In this document: piece by piece, positions 5,974 to 64,000 of the stretch
Layout of the letters: the number at the start of each line of letters is the position of its first letter
How positions within the stretch are numbered: the stretch's first letter is position 1
Assembly (NCBI RefSeq): GCF_009730335.1
Contig: NZ_CP046315.1
Span: 1,302,001-1,366,000 of the forward strand
Origin: Schaalia odontolytica
Lineage (GTDB): Bacteria; Actinomycetota; Actinomycetes; Actinomycetales; Actinomycetaceae
Direction: 5' to 3'
DNA: 64,000 nt
Made by a program: the position numbers and the translations under genes
The notes under the pieces: model-generated
The model's database searches: none
Seen by the model: the letters and a program-made list of their open reading frames with translations, nothing else
What the model was told of the DNA's origin: nothing

Positions 5974-6602
5974 TGCGCGTCATGGGCATCGACCCCGGCC
6001 TGACGCGCTGCGGCCTCGGCGTCGTTGACGTCGATGCGTCGCGGCGTGCCTCGCTCGTGTATGTCGGTGTCGCCCGTACCGATAAGGACCTGGCGACGCA
6101 CTTCCGGCTGCGCGCGATCGCGGACGCGATCGATAGCGTCATCGAACGCTACGAGCCGGAGGTCGTCGCCATCGAACGCGTCTTCGCGCAGGACAACCTC
6201 CAGTCGGTGACGACGACGATGCAGGTCATGGGTGCGGCGATGACGTGCGTGGGTCGCGCCGGACTGCCGATGGCCGTCCACACGCCCTCCGAGGTGAAGT
6301 CCGCCGTTTCTGGTAACGGAAACGCGGACAAGGCGCAGGTGCAGGCGATGGTCGCACGCATCCTTGGCCTCGCCAAGGCTCCTAAGCCCGCGGACGCTGC
6401 GGACGCTCTTGCCATTGCGATTACGCACGCGTGGCGGGGGACAGGCTTGCTCGGCGCCCCCGAGGACTCGTCGGTCGCCGTCTCGATCTCGGGTCGCCTG
6501 ACCGCCCGCGGATCCATGACGCCCGCCCAAAAGGCGTGGGCTGAGGCCCAGGCCGCGCAACGCCGAACGGGTGCCGTCGATCCGAGGCGTAGGCGCGGCT
6601 AG
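5973..6602 (+). CDS. ruvC: Crossover junction endodeoxyribonuclease RuvC
   Basis: RuvC cuts Holliday junctions symmetrically after RuvAB branch migration. The 209-residue protein has the acidic residues expected: Asp7 in MGIDPGL, Glu68 in VVAIERVF, and Asp141/Asp144 in PADAADALAIA. The C-terminal 40 residues past the core are basic and variable. The start overlaps the pdxT stop, so ruvC is read from the pdx transcript, while a separate promoter and LexA-type box appear just after it for ruvAB. Confidence 0.96.
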   Translation: MRVMGIDPGLTRCGLGVVDVDASRRASLVYVGVARTDKDLATHFRLRAIADAIDSVIERYEPEVVAIERVFAQDNLQSVTTTMQVMGAAMTCVGRAGLPMAVHTPSEVKSAVSGNGNADKAQVQAMVARILGLAKAPKPADAADALAIAITHAWRGTGLLGAPEDSSVAVSISGRLTARGSMTPAQKAWAEAQAAQRRTGAVDPRRRRG

Positions 6603-6620
6603 AATCGTACATATGTTCGC
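6600..6620 (+). promoter_or_regulatory. SOS (LexA) box overlapping a -10 element upstream of ruvA
   Basis: TCGTACATATGTTCGC at 6605-6620 matches 10 of the 12 fixed positions of the actinobacterial LexA box TCGAAC-N4-GTTCGA. TAGAAT at 6600-6605, overlapping the ruvC stop, is a fair -10 element, so LexA would sit at the transcription start. This suggests damage-inducible ruvAB transcription separate from the pdx-ruvC message. Confidence 0.75.
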
Positions 6621-6657
6621 CCGCGTACGCGGGTGACCCATGAACGAAAGGAACGCA

Positions 6658-7263
6658 GTGATCTCCATTCTGCGCGGCACAGTTGCGAGCGTCGGCCTCG
6701 ACCACATCGATATCGTGGTGGGAGGCATCGGCTTCCGCGTGCACGTGACGCCCGCCTTCGCCCAGGGCGCCTCGCGCGATCAGGAGATGACCGTGTTCAC
6801 GTCAATGATCGTGCGCGAAGACTTGATGACGCTGTACGGTTTCGAGTCCGCCGATGAGCGGGACGTGTTCACGAAGCTGCTGTCGGTGTCGGGCATCGGC
6901 CCGAAGATCGCGCTCGCCGCACTTGCAGTCTTGCGCCCCGACGACCTGCGCCGCGCGGTGCGCGACCAGGACCTGAGCGCTCTTCAGCGGATCCCAGGCG
7001 TGGGCAAGAAGTCAGCCCAGCGCATGGCCCTGGAAATCGGCGACAAGCTGGGCACCCCGGCAGCACTGCCGGGCGCGCAAACAGCAGCCGCCCCCGCGCC
7101 CACCGAGGACGCCGTCGCCTCCGAGGTCAGCGCTGCCTTGGTCGGCCTGGGATGGTCCGAGGCACAGGCTGCCAAGGCCATCGAGAAACTCGCGGGCAGT
7201 GGTCTTGGCGCATCCGACATGCTGCGCGCCGCCCTCGTGACGCTGGGAGGCGGACGTGGCTGA
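6658..7263 (+). CDS. ruvA: Holliday junction branch migration protein RuvA
   Basis: RuvA is the tetrameric junction-binding partner of RuvB. The 201-residue product has the N-terminal OB fold, two helix-hairpin-helix motifs ([10 protein letters not shown] and [12 protein letters not shown]) and a C-terminal UBA-like domain that contacts RuvB after an Ala/Pro linker. The GTG at 6658 is chosen because AAAGGA lies 5 bases upstream and the protein then begins MISILRG like the family; the earlier ATG at 6640 has no such support. ruvB overlaps its end by 8 bases. Confidence 0.95.
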
Positions 7264-8921: not shown

Positions 8922-10886
8922 GTGGCATCACATAAGCGACGCCCCGTGCGCGCGCTCGTGACCCTGACCGTCGCCATCGTGGCGGCGTGCGCGGCACTTG
9001 CGATCGGGCACTTCGTGAAGGGCGTGTCCCCGTATCCCGACCTGGCCCTTGACCTTAAGGGTGGTACCCAGCTGATCCTGACACCGACCCCGACGTCGGA
9101 GGGACAGCGTGCGATCACCGAGGAAGATATCACGCAGGCGATCGCGATTATTCGTAATCGTATTGACGCGTCCGGTGTGTCCGAGTCTGAGATCTCCTCG
9201 ATGGGTAGCTCTAATATCATGGTGTCGATCCCCGGCACCCCGTCCCAGGAGCAGCTGGATCTGATCCGTTCGTCCTCGCAGATGAACTTCCGCCCGGTGC
9301 TGCGTATTGGGCCTGCGCAGGGCATCCTCCAGAACCAGCAGCAGCCGCAGGTGGATAACCCTCAGTCGGGTGCGCAGTCCGGTGCCCAGTCGGGCGAACA
9401 GAGCGGTGCGCAGTCAGGCGAACAGAGCGGCGCTGGCGCGGCTGATACGGCTCAGTCCGGCATTCAGTCCACTGCACTGGATGAGGCGACCGCTCGCGGC
9501 GCTGCCGACGCGGATGGCGACGGCGTCCTGTCCGACACTCCTGCGACGACTCCCGAGAATGCGTCGGATCTCGCCTGGGTGACCGAGCAGGTCATGTACG
9601 ACTTCCTGACGCTCGATTGCTCGGCATCCGCCGATGTGAAGCGCGTCGAGGGCGCCGCTGACAAGCCCTACGCCGCCTGCGACGAGTCCGGCCAGGTCAA
9701 GTACATCCTGGGCCCCGTGGCCGTTCCCGGTTCGGATCTGGAGGCTGCGAGCGCGGCCATCGCAACGAACGGCACCGGACAGTCGACCGGTCAGTGGATT
9801 GTCTCGCTGCGGTTCAACCACGAGGGCGCCGAGAAGTTCAAGGAGACCTCGACGATCCTGTACGGCTACCACGATTCGGACCCTCAGGGGTCGTCCTATC
9901 GTGGCAGTCCGGACCGTAACTCGTTTGCGGTCGTTCTCGATGGAACCGTGATTACCGCTCCGTCGATGCAGGCCATCATTACGAACGGTGAGGCCCAGAT
10001 CAGCGGCAACTTCACCGCGCAGTCTGCGAGAGCGCTGGCTAACCAGCTGCAGTTCGGCTCGCTCCCGCTGAACTTCGAGGTCGAGTCCGAGCAGCAGATT
10101 TCTGCGACGATCGGCACGGATCACCTGACCGTTGGTCTGTGGGCGGCCCTCATCGGCTTCCTGCTGGTCATCCTCTACCTGATTTGGCAGTACCGCGGCC
10201 TCGCGATTATTTCTGCCGGTTCGCTGGTCGTTGCCTCGGTTATCACCTACCTGGTGATTACGCTGCTGTCGTGGGCGATGGGCTACCGCCTGTCCCTGGC
10301 CGGTGTCGCCGGTCTGATCATGGCAATTGGGGTCACCACGGACTCGTTCATCGTCTACTTCGAACGTGTTCGAGACGAGGTCCGAGACGGACGACCGCTG
10401 CGCGCCGCCGTCGAAGAGGGCTGGGATCGCGCCAAGCGCACCATCCTGATTTCCGACGCGGTCAACATGGTTGCGGCCGTGGTTCTCTACCTGCTCGCCG
10501 TTGGTGGCGTTCAGGGCTTCGCCTTCACCCTCGGCATCACGACAATTATTGACATCGCGGTGATCTTCCTGTTCACCCACCCGATGATGGAGCTGCTGAT
10601 CCGCACTCGCTTCTTCGGCGAGGGCCACAAGCTGTCGGGTCTGGACCCCGAGCACCTGGGTGCGAAGAACTCGCTCGTGTACGCGGGTCGCGGACGCGTG
10701 GTCGTGCGTGGTGAATCCGCGACGACAAAGGACAAGAGCGACGAGGCCGGCGACGGTCTGTCGATTGCCGAGCGCCGCCGTGCCGCCCGCCTCGCCGCCG
10801 CGAAGGCCGAGGAAGAGACCGTTGACGACGCTTCTGTCGAGACAACGGATAGCGCTGCAGGCGTGACCGAGGAAGAGGAGAACTGA
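8922..10886 (+). CDS. secD: Protein translocase subunit SecD
   Basis: SecD works with SecF to pull proteins out of the Sec channel using the proton gradient. The 654-residue protein has an N-terminal membrane helix, a large periplasmic region starting YPDLALDLKGGTQL, and five C-terminal membrane helices with GVTTDSFIVYFERVRDE near 470-486. The periplasmic P1 region carries an unusual insertion of six Gln-Ser-Gly-Ala/Glu units (residues 148-171) and a low-complexity linker. A basic/acidic cytoplasmic tail of about 70 residues ends the protein. GTG start; secF follows after 1 base. Confidence 0.96.
   Translation: MASHKRRPVRALVTLTVAIVAACAALAIGHFVKGVSPYPDLALDLKGGTQLILTPTPTSEGQRAITEEDITQAIAIIRNRIDASGVSESEISSMGSSNIMVSIPGTPSQEQLDLIRSSSQMNFRPVLRIGPAQGILQNQQQPQVDNPQSGAQSGAQSGEQSGAQSGEQSGAGAADTAQSGIQSTALDEATARGAADADGDGVLSDTPATTPENASDLAWVTEQVMYDFLTLDCSASADVKRVEGAADKPYAACDESGQVKYILGPVAVPGSDLEAASAAIATNGTGQSTGQWIVSLRFNHEGAEKFKETSTILYGYHDSDPQGSSYRGSPDRNSFAVVLDGTVITAPSMQAIITNGEAQISGNFTAQSARALANQLQFGSLPLNFEVESEQQISATIGTDHLTVGLWAALIGFLLVILYLIWQYRGLAIISAGSLVVASVITYLVITLLSWAMGYRLSLAGVAGLIMAIGVTTDSFIVYFERVRDEVRDGRPLRAAVEEGWDRAKRTILISDAVNMVAAVVLYLLAVGGVQGFAFTLGITTIIDIAVIFLFTHPMMELLIRTRFFGEGHKLSGLDPEHLGAKNSLVYAGRGRVVVRGESATTKDKSDEAGDGLSIAERRRAARLAAAKAEEETVDDASVETTDSAAGVTEEEEN
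9363..9434 (+). repeat. Six 12-base tandem repeats inside secD
   Basis: Six consecutive 12-base units beginning CAG (TCN or AGC) GGN encode QSGA, QSGA, QSGE, QSGA, QSGE and QSGA. The units differ mainly at third positions. A less regular QSGI copy follows at about 9450. Confidence 0.9.
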
Positions 10887-60773: not shown

Positions 60774-62858
60774 GTGAACAATAACGTCGTGACCCGCCAG
60801 AACAAGCCTTTCGAGGTCATCTCTCCCTATACGCCGTCGGGCGACCAGCCCAAGGCGATCCGGGAGCTGGCTGCGCGCATTCGAGACGGCGAACAGGACG
60901 CCGTTCTCATGGGCGCGACGGGTACGGGTAAGAGCGCGACCACGGCCTGGCTGATTGAGGAGCTGCAGCGTCCCGCTCTGGTACTTGAGCCGAACAAGAC
61001 GCTTGCAGCCCAGCTCGCGGCCGAGTTCCGCGAGCTGCTTCCGAACAACGCCGTCGAGTACTTTGTCTCCTACTACGATTACTACCAACCCGAGGCCTAC
61101 GTTCCCCAGACGGATACCTTCATCGAGAAGGACTCCTCGATCAACGACGAGGTCGAGCGGCTGCGCCACAGCGCTACGAACTCGCTGCTCACGAGGCGCG
61201 ACACGGTCGTCGTCTCCTCGGTGTCTTGCATCTACGGCCTCGGTACTCCCGAGGAATACGTAGCCCGCATGATTGAGCTCGAGCGGGGTATGATCATCGA
61301 CCGCGACGCTCTCCTGCGGCGCTTCGTCGCCATGCAGTACGTGCGCAACGACTTGGCTTTTACGCGCGGCACGTTCCGCGTGCGCGGCGATACGATCGAG
61401 ATCATCCCCGTGTATGAGGAGCTCGCGATCCGCATCGAGATGTTCGGCGACGAGATCGAGTCTCTTGCCGTTCTCCATCCGCTCACCGGCGACGTCATCG
61501 ATCACGTCGACCACACGTACCTTTTCCCGGCCTCGCACTACGTGGCCGGCGAGGAACGTATGAAGAAGGCGATCGCCTCCATCGAGGATGAGCTCGATGA
61601 TCGCCTCGCGTGGTTCCGCGGCCAGAACAAGCTGCTCGAGGAGCAGCGCCTGCGCATGCGCACCACCTTCGACCTGGAGATGCTCAAAGAAATCGGCTCG
61701 TGCTCGGGTGTCGAGAACTATTCGCGCCACATCGACGGGCGCGGACCCGGCACGCCTCCGCACACGCTGCTGGACTACTTCCCCGATGACTTCCTGCTCA
61801 TCATCGACGAGTCGCACGTGACCGTTCCACAGATCGGCGCGATGTTTGAGGGAGACATGTCGCGTAAGCGCACCCTCGTCGACTACGGGTTCCGCCTGCC
61901 CTCCGCGATGGACAACCGCCCTCTGAAGTGGGATGAGTTTACCGAGCGCATTGGGCAGACCGTCTACCTGTCGGCGACCCCCGGCCCCTACGAGCTTGAA
62001 CGCTCCGACGGCGTCGTTGAGCAGATCATTCGCCCGACGGGCCTCGTTGACCCGCTCGTCGTCGTCAAGCCCACCGAGGGCCAGATCGACGACCTCCTGG
62101 AGCAGGTGCGTGTGCGCGTCGAACGCGACGAACGAGTCCTCGTCACCACCCTGACGAAGAAGATGGCCGAGGAACTCACGACCTACCTCGCCGAGCGGGG
62201 CGTCAAGGTCGAGTATCTGCACTCCGACGTCGACACTCTGCGCCGCGTCGAGCTACTCCGCGAGCTGCGCCTGGGCACGTTCGACGTGCTCGTCGGCATC
62301 AACCTGCTGCGTGAGGGCCTCGACCTGCCCGAGGTCTCCCTCGTGTCGATCCTCGATGCGGACAAGGAAGGCTTCCTGCGCTCGACTCGCTCGCTCATCC
62401 AGACGATCGGCCGCGCCGCCCGAAACGTGTCCGGCGAGGTCCACATGTACGCGGACAACATGACGGATTCGATGAACGAGGCCATCTCGGAGACGATGCG
62501 TCGTCGCGAGATCCAGATCGCCTACAACAAGGAACACGGCATCGACCCGCAGCCGCTGCGTAAGAAGATCTCCGACGTGACCGACATGCTTGCCCGCGAG
62601 CAGGTTGATACGCAGACCCTCCTCGAGGGCGGGTACCGCAAGGAAAAGAGCAAGAGGGAGCGTAGCGACGCGACCGGTGGCGGCCGCGCCGTGATATCGG
62701 GTCAGCGGGCTGAGGCTGAGCTTGCCGAACTCATCGAGGAGCTGTCCGCCCAGATGATGATAGCCGCCCAGCACCTCCAATTCGAGGTCGCGGCTCGCCT
62801 GCGTGACGAGATCGAAGACCTGAAGAAGGAACTGCGCGCCATGAAGCGCGCCCACTGA
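60774..62858 (+). CDS. uvrB: Excinuclease ABC subunit B
   Basis: UvrB verifies damage and loads UvrC in nucleotide excision repair. The 694-residue protein has Walker [11 protein letters not shown], the beta-hairpin region [12 protein letters not shown], helicase motifs through [15 protein letters not shown], and a C-terminal UVR domain. GTG start; AGGAG is only one base away so it is not a normal ribosome site, and TAGCGT (60762-60767) 6 bases before the GTG suggests a leaderless message. No LexA box was seen. Confidence 0.96.
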
Positions 62859-62942
62859 CGTCGGCCCCGCCCCGGTTGCCTGTCGGCGTCGGGCGGCCCC
62901 GGCCTCGTCGATAGGCACTCCGGTGAGAATCGCGACCGACGC

Positions 62943-62968
62943 CACGTCGCACGCGGGGACGCGACGTG
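62943..62968. promoter_or_regulatory. Inverted repeat over the terC promoter -35 region
   Basis: CACGTCGC, 10 bases, GCGACGTG. It covers the position where a -35 would lie for the -10 at 62981. It could be an operator or the terminator hairpin of uvrB. Confidence 0.5.
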
Positions 62969-62980
62969 AGGTGCACCGAC

Positions 62981-62986
62981 TAGGAT
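62981..62986 (+). promoter_or_regulatory. -10 element of the riboswitch-terC transcript
   Basis: TAGGAT predicts transcription start near 62992-62994, just before the P1 strand of the riboswitch. Confidence 0.6.
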
Positions 62987-62997
62987 GGAAGCGTTAG

Positions 62998-63106
62998 CGG
63001 AGGGGAGTACTCCCACCAACAGTGGCGTCGTCATCACGACGGCCCGCCCATGCGGCGTGGCCTCCGGCGTCACCGGCCAGGATTTCCTGGCGGGAGGAGA
63101 CCTCCG
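62998..63106 (+). ncRNA. yybP-ykoY (manganese-sensing) riboswitch
   Basis: P1 is CGGAGG (62998-63003) with CCTCCG (63101-63106). Conserved elements in order: GGGGAGTA (63002-63009), GTCGTCATCAC (63027-63037), and GACCTCC (63099-63105). This matches the Bacillus yybP layout in which GGGGAGUAG, GUCGUCAA and GACCUUU occupy the same places. It lies immediately before a TerC gene, a usual target of the class. Confidence 0.87.
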
Positions 63107-63127
63107 GTACCCGACTCGTACCGGAGG
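63101..63127 (+). promoter_or_regulatory. Expression platform: hairpin burying the terC ribosome site
   Basis: CCTCCGGTAC (63101-63110), 7 bases, GTACCGGAGG (63118-63127). The 5' arm contains the P1 3' strand and the 3' arm contains the GGAGG ribosome site, 8 bases before the terC ATG. P1 formation and this hairpin are mutually exclusive. Confidence 0.85.
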
Positions 63128-63135
63128 CCCCACGT

Positions 63136-64000
63136 ATGCACGTGCACGCCCTTGCCTGGATAGTCCTGGCTGGCATCATCCTGACCATGATCGTCGTCGA
63201 CATCGTCGCCCACGTCCGCACACCCCACGAACCCACGCTCAAGGAAGCGACCTGGTGGTCCGTCGCCTACATCGCGATCGCCCTTATTTTCGGCGCCATC
63301 GTCTGGGCGGTCTGGGGACCCCAATACGGCCAGGAATACCTCGGCGGCTATATCACCGAAAAAGCGCTGAGTATTGACAACCTGTTCGTGTTCGTCATCA
63401 TCCTCTCCACCTTCCGCGTACCCAGGAAAAACCAGCAGGAGGTGCTGCTCGCCGGCATCATCATCGCCCTGGTTCTGCGCCTCATCTTCATTCTGGCTGG
63501 TGCCGCGCTTATCGAAAACTTCTCGTGGGTCTTCTATCTGTTCGGCGCGTGGCTGCTGTGGACAGCAATCAGCCAGGTTCGCGAAGGCTCCAGCGATGAC
63601 GACGACGAGGAGTACCGCCCGCCGTCAATCGTGCGCTGGGTGTCGAAGGTCGTGCCCGTCACCGACGGCTTTATCGGCTCGCGTATGCTCTACCGCCACG
63701 GTGGCCGCACCTATATCACGCCGATGCTGCTGTGTGTCATCGCGATCGGCACCGCCGACGTCATGTTCGCCGTCGACTCGATTCCCGCGATCTACTCGCT
63801 GACCTCCGAGGCGTACCTGGTGTTCGCTGCCAATGCGTTCTCGCTGCTCGGCTTGCGCCAGCTCTATTTCCTCATCGATGGCCTGCTCGACCGCATCGTG
63901 TTCCTCCACTACGGCCTTGCTGCGATTCTGGGTTTCATCGGCTTCAAGCTGATCAACCACGCGCTGCACACCAACGAGCTGCCGTTCATCAATGGTGGCC
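63136..64000 (+). CDS. TerC family membrane protein (probable metal exporter), 3' truncated by window edge
   Basis: The first 288 residues of a TerC family protein. Hydrophobic helices begin at once (ALAWIVLAGIILTMIVVDIV), and the family signatures YITEKALSIDNLFVFVII and ADVMFAVDSIPAI are present, each with a charged residue inside the membrane. TerC relatives in Bacillus export manganese, which fits the riboswitch upstream. The ATG at 63136 is 8 bases after GGAGG and begins the conserved region. The gene continues past the window. Confidence 0.92.
   Translation, partial: MHVHALAWIVLAGIILTMIVVDIVAHVRTPHEPTLKEATWWSVAYIAIALIFGAIVWAVWGPQYGQEYLGGYITEKALSIDNLFVFVIILSTFRVPRKNQQEVLLAGIIIALVLRLIFILAGAALIENFSWVFYLFGAWLLWTAISQVREGSSDDDDEEYRPPSIVRWVSKVVPVTDGFIGSRMLYRHGGRTYITPMLLCVIAIGTADVMFAVDSIPAIYSLTSEAYLVFAANAFSLLGLRQLYFLIDGLLDRIVFLHYGLAAILGFIGFKLINHALHTNELPFINGG

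Follow-up and report, generated by a model that had tools for sequence, protein, structure and literature searches.

Genomic Context of the terC Leader

The 3' end of the analyzed window (64,000 nucleotides of the Schaalia odontolytica contig NZ_CP046315.1) carries two genes on the forward strand: uvrB (60774-62858), and terC, whose ATG lies at 63136 and whose reading frame (63136-64000) continues beyond the window end, encoding a protein of 326 amino acids in the genome (Pfam TerC, 5.5e-49). The start codon of terC is preceded by a ribosome site, GGAGG (63123-63127), read from the sequence. The bases and coordinates of the leader as given in an earlier sequence-only reading, including those of helix P1 and of the 10-pair hairpin over GGAGG, all proved correct when we re-read the window.

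Beyond the window on its 3' side, two further genes lie on the same strand as terC, namely another terC copy (6175-7173) and then a gene for a P-type ATPase that ends at 9553 (L001:5136-9553); the three genes likely form a metal operon. In B. subtilis, TerC proteins are active in Mn efflux and in addition supply metal to exported enzymes (PMC10550928); the TerC encoded in the window is presumably an exporter. As judged by eye, a uvrB-like frame ends upstream of terC in five relatives (L023, L028, L062, L079, L080), and the uvrB-terC gene order of the window (60774-63136) may be conserved.

A likely -10 hexamer, TAGGAT, is located at 62981-62986 of the forward strand, and TANNNT is found at the same spacing, just 5' of P1, in 87 out of 103 distinct upstreams, against 11.9 expected from shuffles. 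Due to this conservation, the transcript probably starts a few bases 5' of P1; a scan for the sigma-70 consensus listed no promoter upstream of P1.

Structure and Conservation of the Proposed Aptamer

All elements of the leader lie on the forward strand. Helix P1 comprises six pairs between CGGAGG (62998-63003) and CCTCCG (63101-63106), the latter strand also belonging to the anti-ribosome-site hairpin described below. Next to P1 are the two sides of the metal loop L1, GGAGTA (63004-63009) and GAGA (63097-63100), so that both the L1 motif GGGGAGTA / GGGGAGUA and its 3' partner side are present in the window leader. They are followed inward by helix P1.2 (CTCCC, 63010-63014, with GGGAG, 63092-63096), a seven-base linker ACCAACA (63015-63021), helix P3.1 (63022-63030 with 63065-63073), loop L3 TCATCACG (63031-63038), hairpin P3.2 (63041-63062), and hairpin P4, GCCAGG-ATTT-CCTGGC (63076-63091). 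The fold energy of the 161-nt leader is matched by one out of 200 shuffles (z -3.25).

Comparison with related leaders supports this structure. Of 58 genomes, comprising those of relatives and that of S. odontolytica itself, 57 were found to encode TerC. Among the 70 terC upstreams that were read (30, L002-L031, and 40, L046-L085), 54 contain the L1 motif and the AGAC motif in this order 5' of the gene, motif presence being the selection criterion; among the remaining 16 are second copies of terC within operons. The alignment A1 consists of 41 of the 54 motif-bearing leaders, that of the window included, with 13 omitted as near copies or due to length or boundary (L004, L008, L009, L012, L015, L021, L047, L049, L056, L059, L063, L067, L081). 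It displays P1, P1.2, P3.1, P3.2, and P4, and covariation was counted on the structure predicted by RNAalifold and extended by hand. In A1, 85.2% of cells pair (70.0% in shuffles), changes on both sides are seen in 21 out of 27 pairs, and the covariation score is 0.453 versus 0.193 in shuffles, none out of 500 of which reach it, and at most 0.139 for the slid structure. P1, P1.2, P3.1, and P4 all covary, as does the variable P3.2, the weakest of the large helices (68.8% of cells paired). Variants of P1.2 recognized by eye are CTCCC/GGGAG, CTTC/GAAG (L061), CCTC/GAGG (L050), and CGTC/GACG (L084).

From A1 (41 related terC leaders, one round of homologues), we built a covariance model, R1. It scores the window leader at 94.9 bits (E 1.3e-22), and the next place in the genome at 18.7 bits; this difference, together with the covariation, rules out a chance match. 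R1 matches 79 of the 80 best named terC loci listed, the exception being L175, and the lowest score among the matches is 50.2 bits; the nearest named terC locus among the matches listed is that of Schaalia sp. ORNL0103. These best 80 loci yielded 81 matches, of which five are identical to training rows and 76 are not. Covariation is again observed in them (0.459 versus 0.211), in an alignment that is fitted to the model and hence biased toward it.

The core loops do not vary. GGGAGTA and the A at window position 63033 occur in 41 out of 41 leaders of A1, where GGGAGTA and AGAC are selection criteria, and GGGAGTA, AGA, and the L3 adenosine occur in 81 out of 81 R1 matches of the named loci (best 80 listed), which were picked by model score only. 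In the X. oryzae structure, L1 and L3 make up the metal site, and Mn2+ is contacted by an adenosine of L3 that is invariable (PMC6754395); the A at 63033 likely corresponds to A48 of that RNA.

In several relatives, inspection by eye suggests that the L1 strand may pair with runs resembling CTCCCC, located between P1 and the ribosome site. Two Blastococcus genomes carry second copies of the element 3' of terC (L195:2778-2881 and L198:3174-3277). In two further records, titled Xylanimonas cellulosilytica 352_XCEL (L120) and Sanguibacter keddieii 250_SKED (L121), TerC is 99% and 98% identical, respectively, to that of the window; in identity they rank next to Schaalia, and the record titles may be wrong.

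Relation to the yybP-ykoY Class

The sequence-only reading had assigned the leader to the yybP-ykoY class and had named a search with the Rfam model as a check, a negative outcome of which it would have taken as refuting. That search was negative: RF00080 (Manganese; Rfam release 15, curated cut-off 45 bits) matches nothing in the window at the gathering score, and with E relaxed to 10 it is equally silent on a 401-base stretch and on the whole S. odontolytica genome. In 20 motif-bearing upstream stretches of relatives, it gave one match of 14.5 bits (E 1.3). Matches to two other models, Pseudomon-groES (17 bits, cut-off 50) and SECIS_2 (14.2 bits, cut-off 70), were rejected as noise.

Despite the silence of RF00080, the relation to the class is upheld by the homologues and by R1. 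In the Rfam model, L1 is followed by hairpin P2 (alignment positions 26-44), and the alignments show that the seven-base linker of the window leader stands in its place, making the junction three-way and not four-way. Judged from these alignments, the absence of P2 would explain why RF00080 is silent. Of the conserved pieces of the class that had been claimed for the leader, L1, L3, P1, and P3 are confirmed, whereas P2 is missing. The leader resembles RF00080 in L1, the L3 loop with its invariant adenosine, the switch helix P1, P3, P4, and the association with terC, and differs from it in lacking P2 and in having no RF00080 score. It falls outside RF00080 as modelled, and since a three-way form is reported for Streptococcus, it represents a variant within a class already described.

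The two models can be compared directly on larger sets of genomes. In 40 genomes of the taxonomic class, R1 has matches at E 0.001 in 27, and RF00080 has matches in four, with none above its cut-off; training sequences came from three of the 40 genomes (G000, G039, G051). Three out of the four RF00080 sites coincide with R1 sites (G362 C22, G161 C21, G051 C4), the RF00080 match being short in the last of them. Conversely, R1 overlaps 13 out of 14 Rfam-found loci of the phylum, missing L035; six of them have E values of 0.0015 or better, and the other seven lie between 0.0085 and 0.064, two of the latter being partial. In three out of four alignments of Rfam-found loci shown, the extra bases form an insertion between P1.2 and P3; it is not seen in L041. 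The co-location of the two models at the same sites argues directly for homology. Across 296 genomes of the phylum, searched at E 0.01, R1 has matches in at least 61 and RF00080 in at least 13 (one above the cut-off), with no genome in common, these counts being lower bounds as 12 and eight candidates per genome, respectively, were scored.

Genes Downstream of the Element

We considered genes at 29 loci from the R1 scan of the phylum (L090-L118; L091 belongs to the training set). The element precedes TerC in 19 of them and a P-type ATPase bearing cation ATPase domains in five, the remainder being a Na/Ca exchanger, an M50 peptidase, a frame without a Pfam match, and two contig ends. The downstream genes thereby show the association with metal homeostasis that marks the yybP-ykoY class. 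Both the Na/Ca exchanger (L096:1501-2943) and the M50 peptidase with a CBS domain (L118:1501-2825) are unexpected for a plain Mn export switch. The 288-aa frame without a Pfam match (L094:1501-2522) may encode a new transporter or may be an incorrect frame.

Proposed Expression Platform

The anti-ribosome-site hairpin (63101-63127, forward strand) is formed by 10 pairs between CCTCCGGTAC (63101-63110) and GTACCGGAGG (63118-63127), with the loop at 63111-63117. The hexamer CGGAGG occurs twice, as the P1 5' strand (62998-63003) and over the ribosome site (63122-63127), and the two copies are identical, in keeping with the earlier remark that P1 mimics the anti-ribosome-site pairing. Since both helices use the same CCTCCG (63101-63106) with an identical CGGAGG, P1 and the hairpin are mutually exclusive. 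The region from 62860 to 63300 was scanned and holds no recognizable intrinsic terminator, and the hairpin covers the ribosome site; both observations agree with the proposed control at the level of translation and not by an intrinsic terminator.

A test of this pairing in relatives covered 92 leaders whose start codon was judged secure (60 of the 79 named and 32 of the 54), 78 of them distinct. In 65 out of 78 leaders, the P1 3' strand, taken together with the GAGA of L1, is so complementary to the bases preceding the start codon that at most 10 out of 200 letter shuffles are better, which sustains the proposed competition, and 48 out of 78 reach the stricter mark of all but two out of 200 shuffles. 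The tail of the window, represented by the identical L119, is surpassed by none out of 200. The other 13 leaders fall short of the first mark, most obviously L060 and L061 (143 and 184 out of 200, respectively), and in three leaders outside this test (L064, L067, L084) the ribosome site is not clearly paired as judged by eye, which speaks against generality.

The pairing occurs in two registers, both using the CCTC of P1. The outward one, CCTCCGGTAC with GTACCGGAGG, is the form found in the window. In the inward one, AGACCTC pairs with GAGGTTT or GAGGTCT (L021, L031; shorter in L024), which would dismantle L1. An inward arm pairing into the metal loop L1 was noted in six relatives (L018, L021, L022, L024, L026, L031). 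Joint changes of the arms are seen in L141 (CCTCCAAT/ATTGGAG), L179 (CCTCCAC/GTGGAGG), and L140 and L025 (CCTTCGGTAC/GTACCGAAGG).

In the alignment A3, containing 49 distinct tails from the 60 named leaders, 90.6% of the hairpin cells pair versus 87.1% (reached by none out of 500), and the covariation score is 0.132 versus 0.108 (six out of 500). Changes affecting both partners are seen in five of the 10 pairs (reached by 11 out of 500; a slide by -1 also gives five), and there is no excess of pair types (129 out of 500). As far as these alignments indicate, the hairpin is supported more by conserved complementarity than by covariation, which is modest. Counted over eight bases, leaders form 6.99 pairs with their own ribosome sites, 6.58 with swapped ones, and 5.33 with shuffled ones, the weak separation of own from swapped sites being partly due to the blindness of this count to the inward register. 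Any CCTCC facing a GGAGG would share much of the hairpin complementarity, and the extended test is controlled by letter shuffles only.

According to ViennaRNA, which ignores the metal core, the hairpin state (-78.9 kcal/mol) is favoured over the P1 state (-70.2 kcal/mol) by 8.7 kcal/mol without metal. A gap of this size suggests that the choice of fold is made during transcription, when P1 could form before the ribosome site is transcribed.

Proposed Mechanism and Alternative Explanations

At the level of sequence comparison, the leader is demonstrably conserved, with covarying helices, homology to RF00080, mutually exclusive pairings, and an associated gene. We consider it highly probable that it is a P2-less yybP-ykoY homologue, a metal-sensing riboswitch that heads the terC transcript and acts on translation, largely as the sequence-only reading proposed. 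Mn2+ as the ligand, the ON direction, and the co-transcriptional choice of fold are what we infer from these features. At low metal, 63101-63110 would fold onto 63118-63127, hiding the ribosome site. Mn2+ would dock L1 against L3 and stabilize P1 (62998-63003 with 63101-63106), and the stabilized P1 would release the hexamer 63122-63127, so that terC could be translated. Given that the hairpin is favoured by 8.7 kcal/mol without metal, switching may need a kinetic route.

The same RNA might respond mainly to another signal, which could be Ca2+ or a different divalent ion, or else alkaline pH combined with Mn2+, with the altered junction providing the tuning. The three-way aptamer of S. pneumoniae mgtA is said to have a higher in vitro affinity for Ca2+ than for Mn2+ (PMC9495176), pH likewise acts on mntP and alx of E. 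coli (PMC9603457), and relatives of the element precede a Na/Ca exchanger in one case and cation P-type ATPases in five. However, L1 and the L3 adenosine are invariant, and the commonest downstream gene is terC, linked to Mn in B. subtilis, making a different main signal improbable. Still less probable is that this aptamer works mainly through Rho-dependent termination of the untranslated leader and not through ribosome access itself. Rho does act at the E. coli mntP riboswitch (PMC11647493), and the window leader has no intrinsic terminator, but a second helix lies over the ribosome site and is kept in most of the leaders tested; both modes could coexist. We find it hardly credible that the hairpin is static, or a thermometer, and requires no ligand: it is very stable alone and RF00080 is silent, yet the covarying aptamer helices, the invariant core loops, and the recurrence before other transporter genes would then all be superfluous.

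Comparison With Known Systems and Implications

The preferred reading, a P2-less riboswitch acting on translation of terC, has partial parallels among described systems. In S. pneumoniae, mgtA is reported to be controlled by a yybP-ykoY riboswitch with a three-way junction (Martin 2019, as cited in PMC9495176), and given this reported case P2 may not be essential to the class. Compared by description and not by sequence, it resembles the window leader in the three-way aptamer, and its P-type ATPase gene has counterparts in five relatives of that leader; it differs in phylum and in acting at the level of transcription. In E. coli, the ribosome site of mntP is hidden without Mn and freed with Mn, similarly to the translational ON switch proposed here, although the mntP leader is 229 nt long (PMC11647493). 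The E. coli genome, used as a control, scores above the RF00080 cut-off (locus not given), whereas the window leader has no score. Within the same phylum and at the same gene, an Rfam-predicted yybP-ykoY leader of C. glutamicum terC (cg2157) was observed by RNAseq; unlike the window leader, it was detected by the 2013 Rfam model, at 49.13 bits (PMC3890552). Literature searches on yybP-ykoY or manganese riboswitches, covering mainly open-access papers, revealed no description of a form lacking P2 in Actinomycetota.

A broader proposal, which we regard as possible but rather unlikely, is that a distinct P2-less subclass, missed by Rfam, is a standard means by which translation of terC, and of some genes for cation P-type ATPases, is controlled in much of Actinomycetota, its altered junction conferring a metal preference of its own (e.g., shared between Mn2+ and Ca2+).

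If the preferred reading is true, annotation based on RF00080 misses the control of terC by metal in the taxonomic class (zero out of 40 genomes over the cut-off versus 27 out of 40 with R1), and the Rfam family would gain from a P2-less sub-model. RNAs of this kind would also constitute a natural test of the contribution of P2 to Mn2+ sensing.
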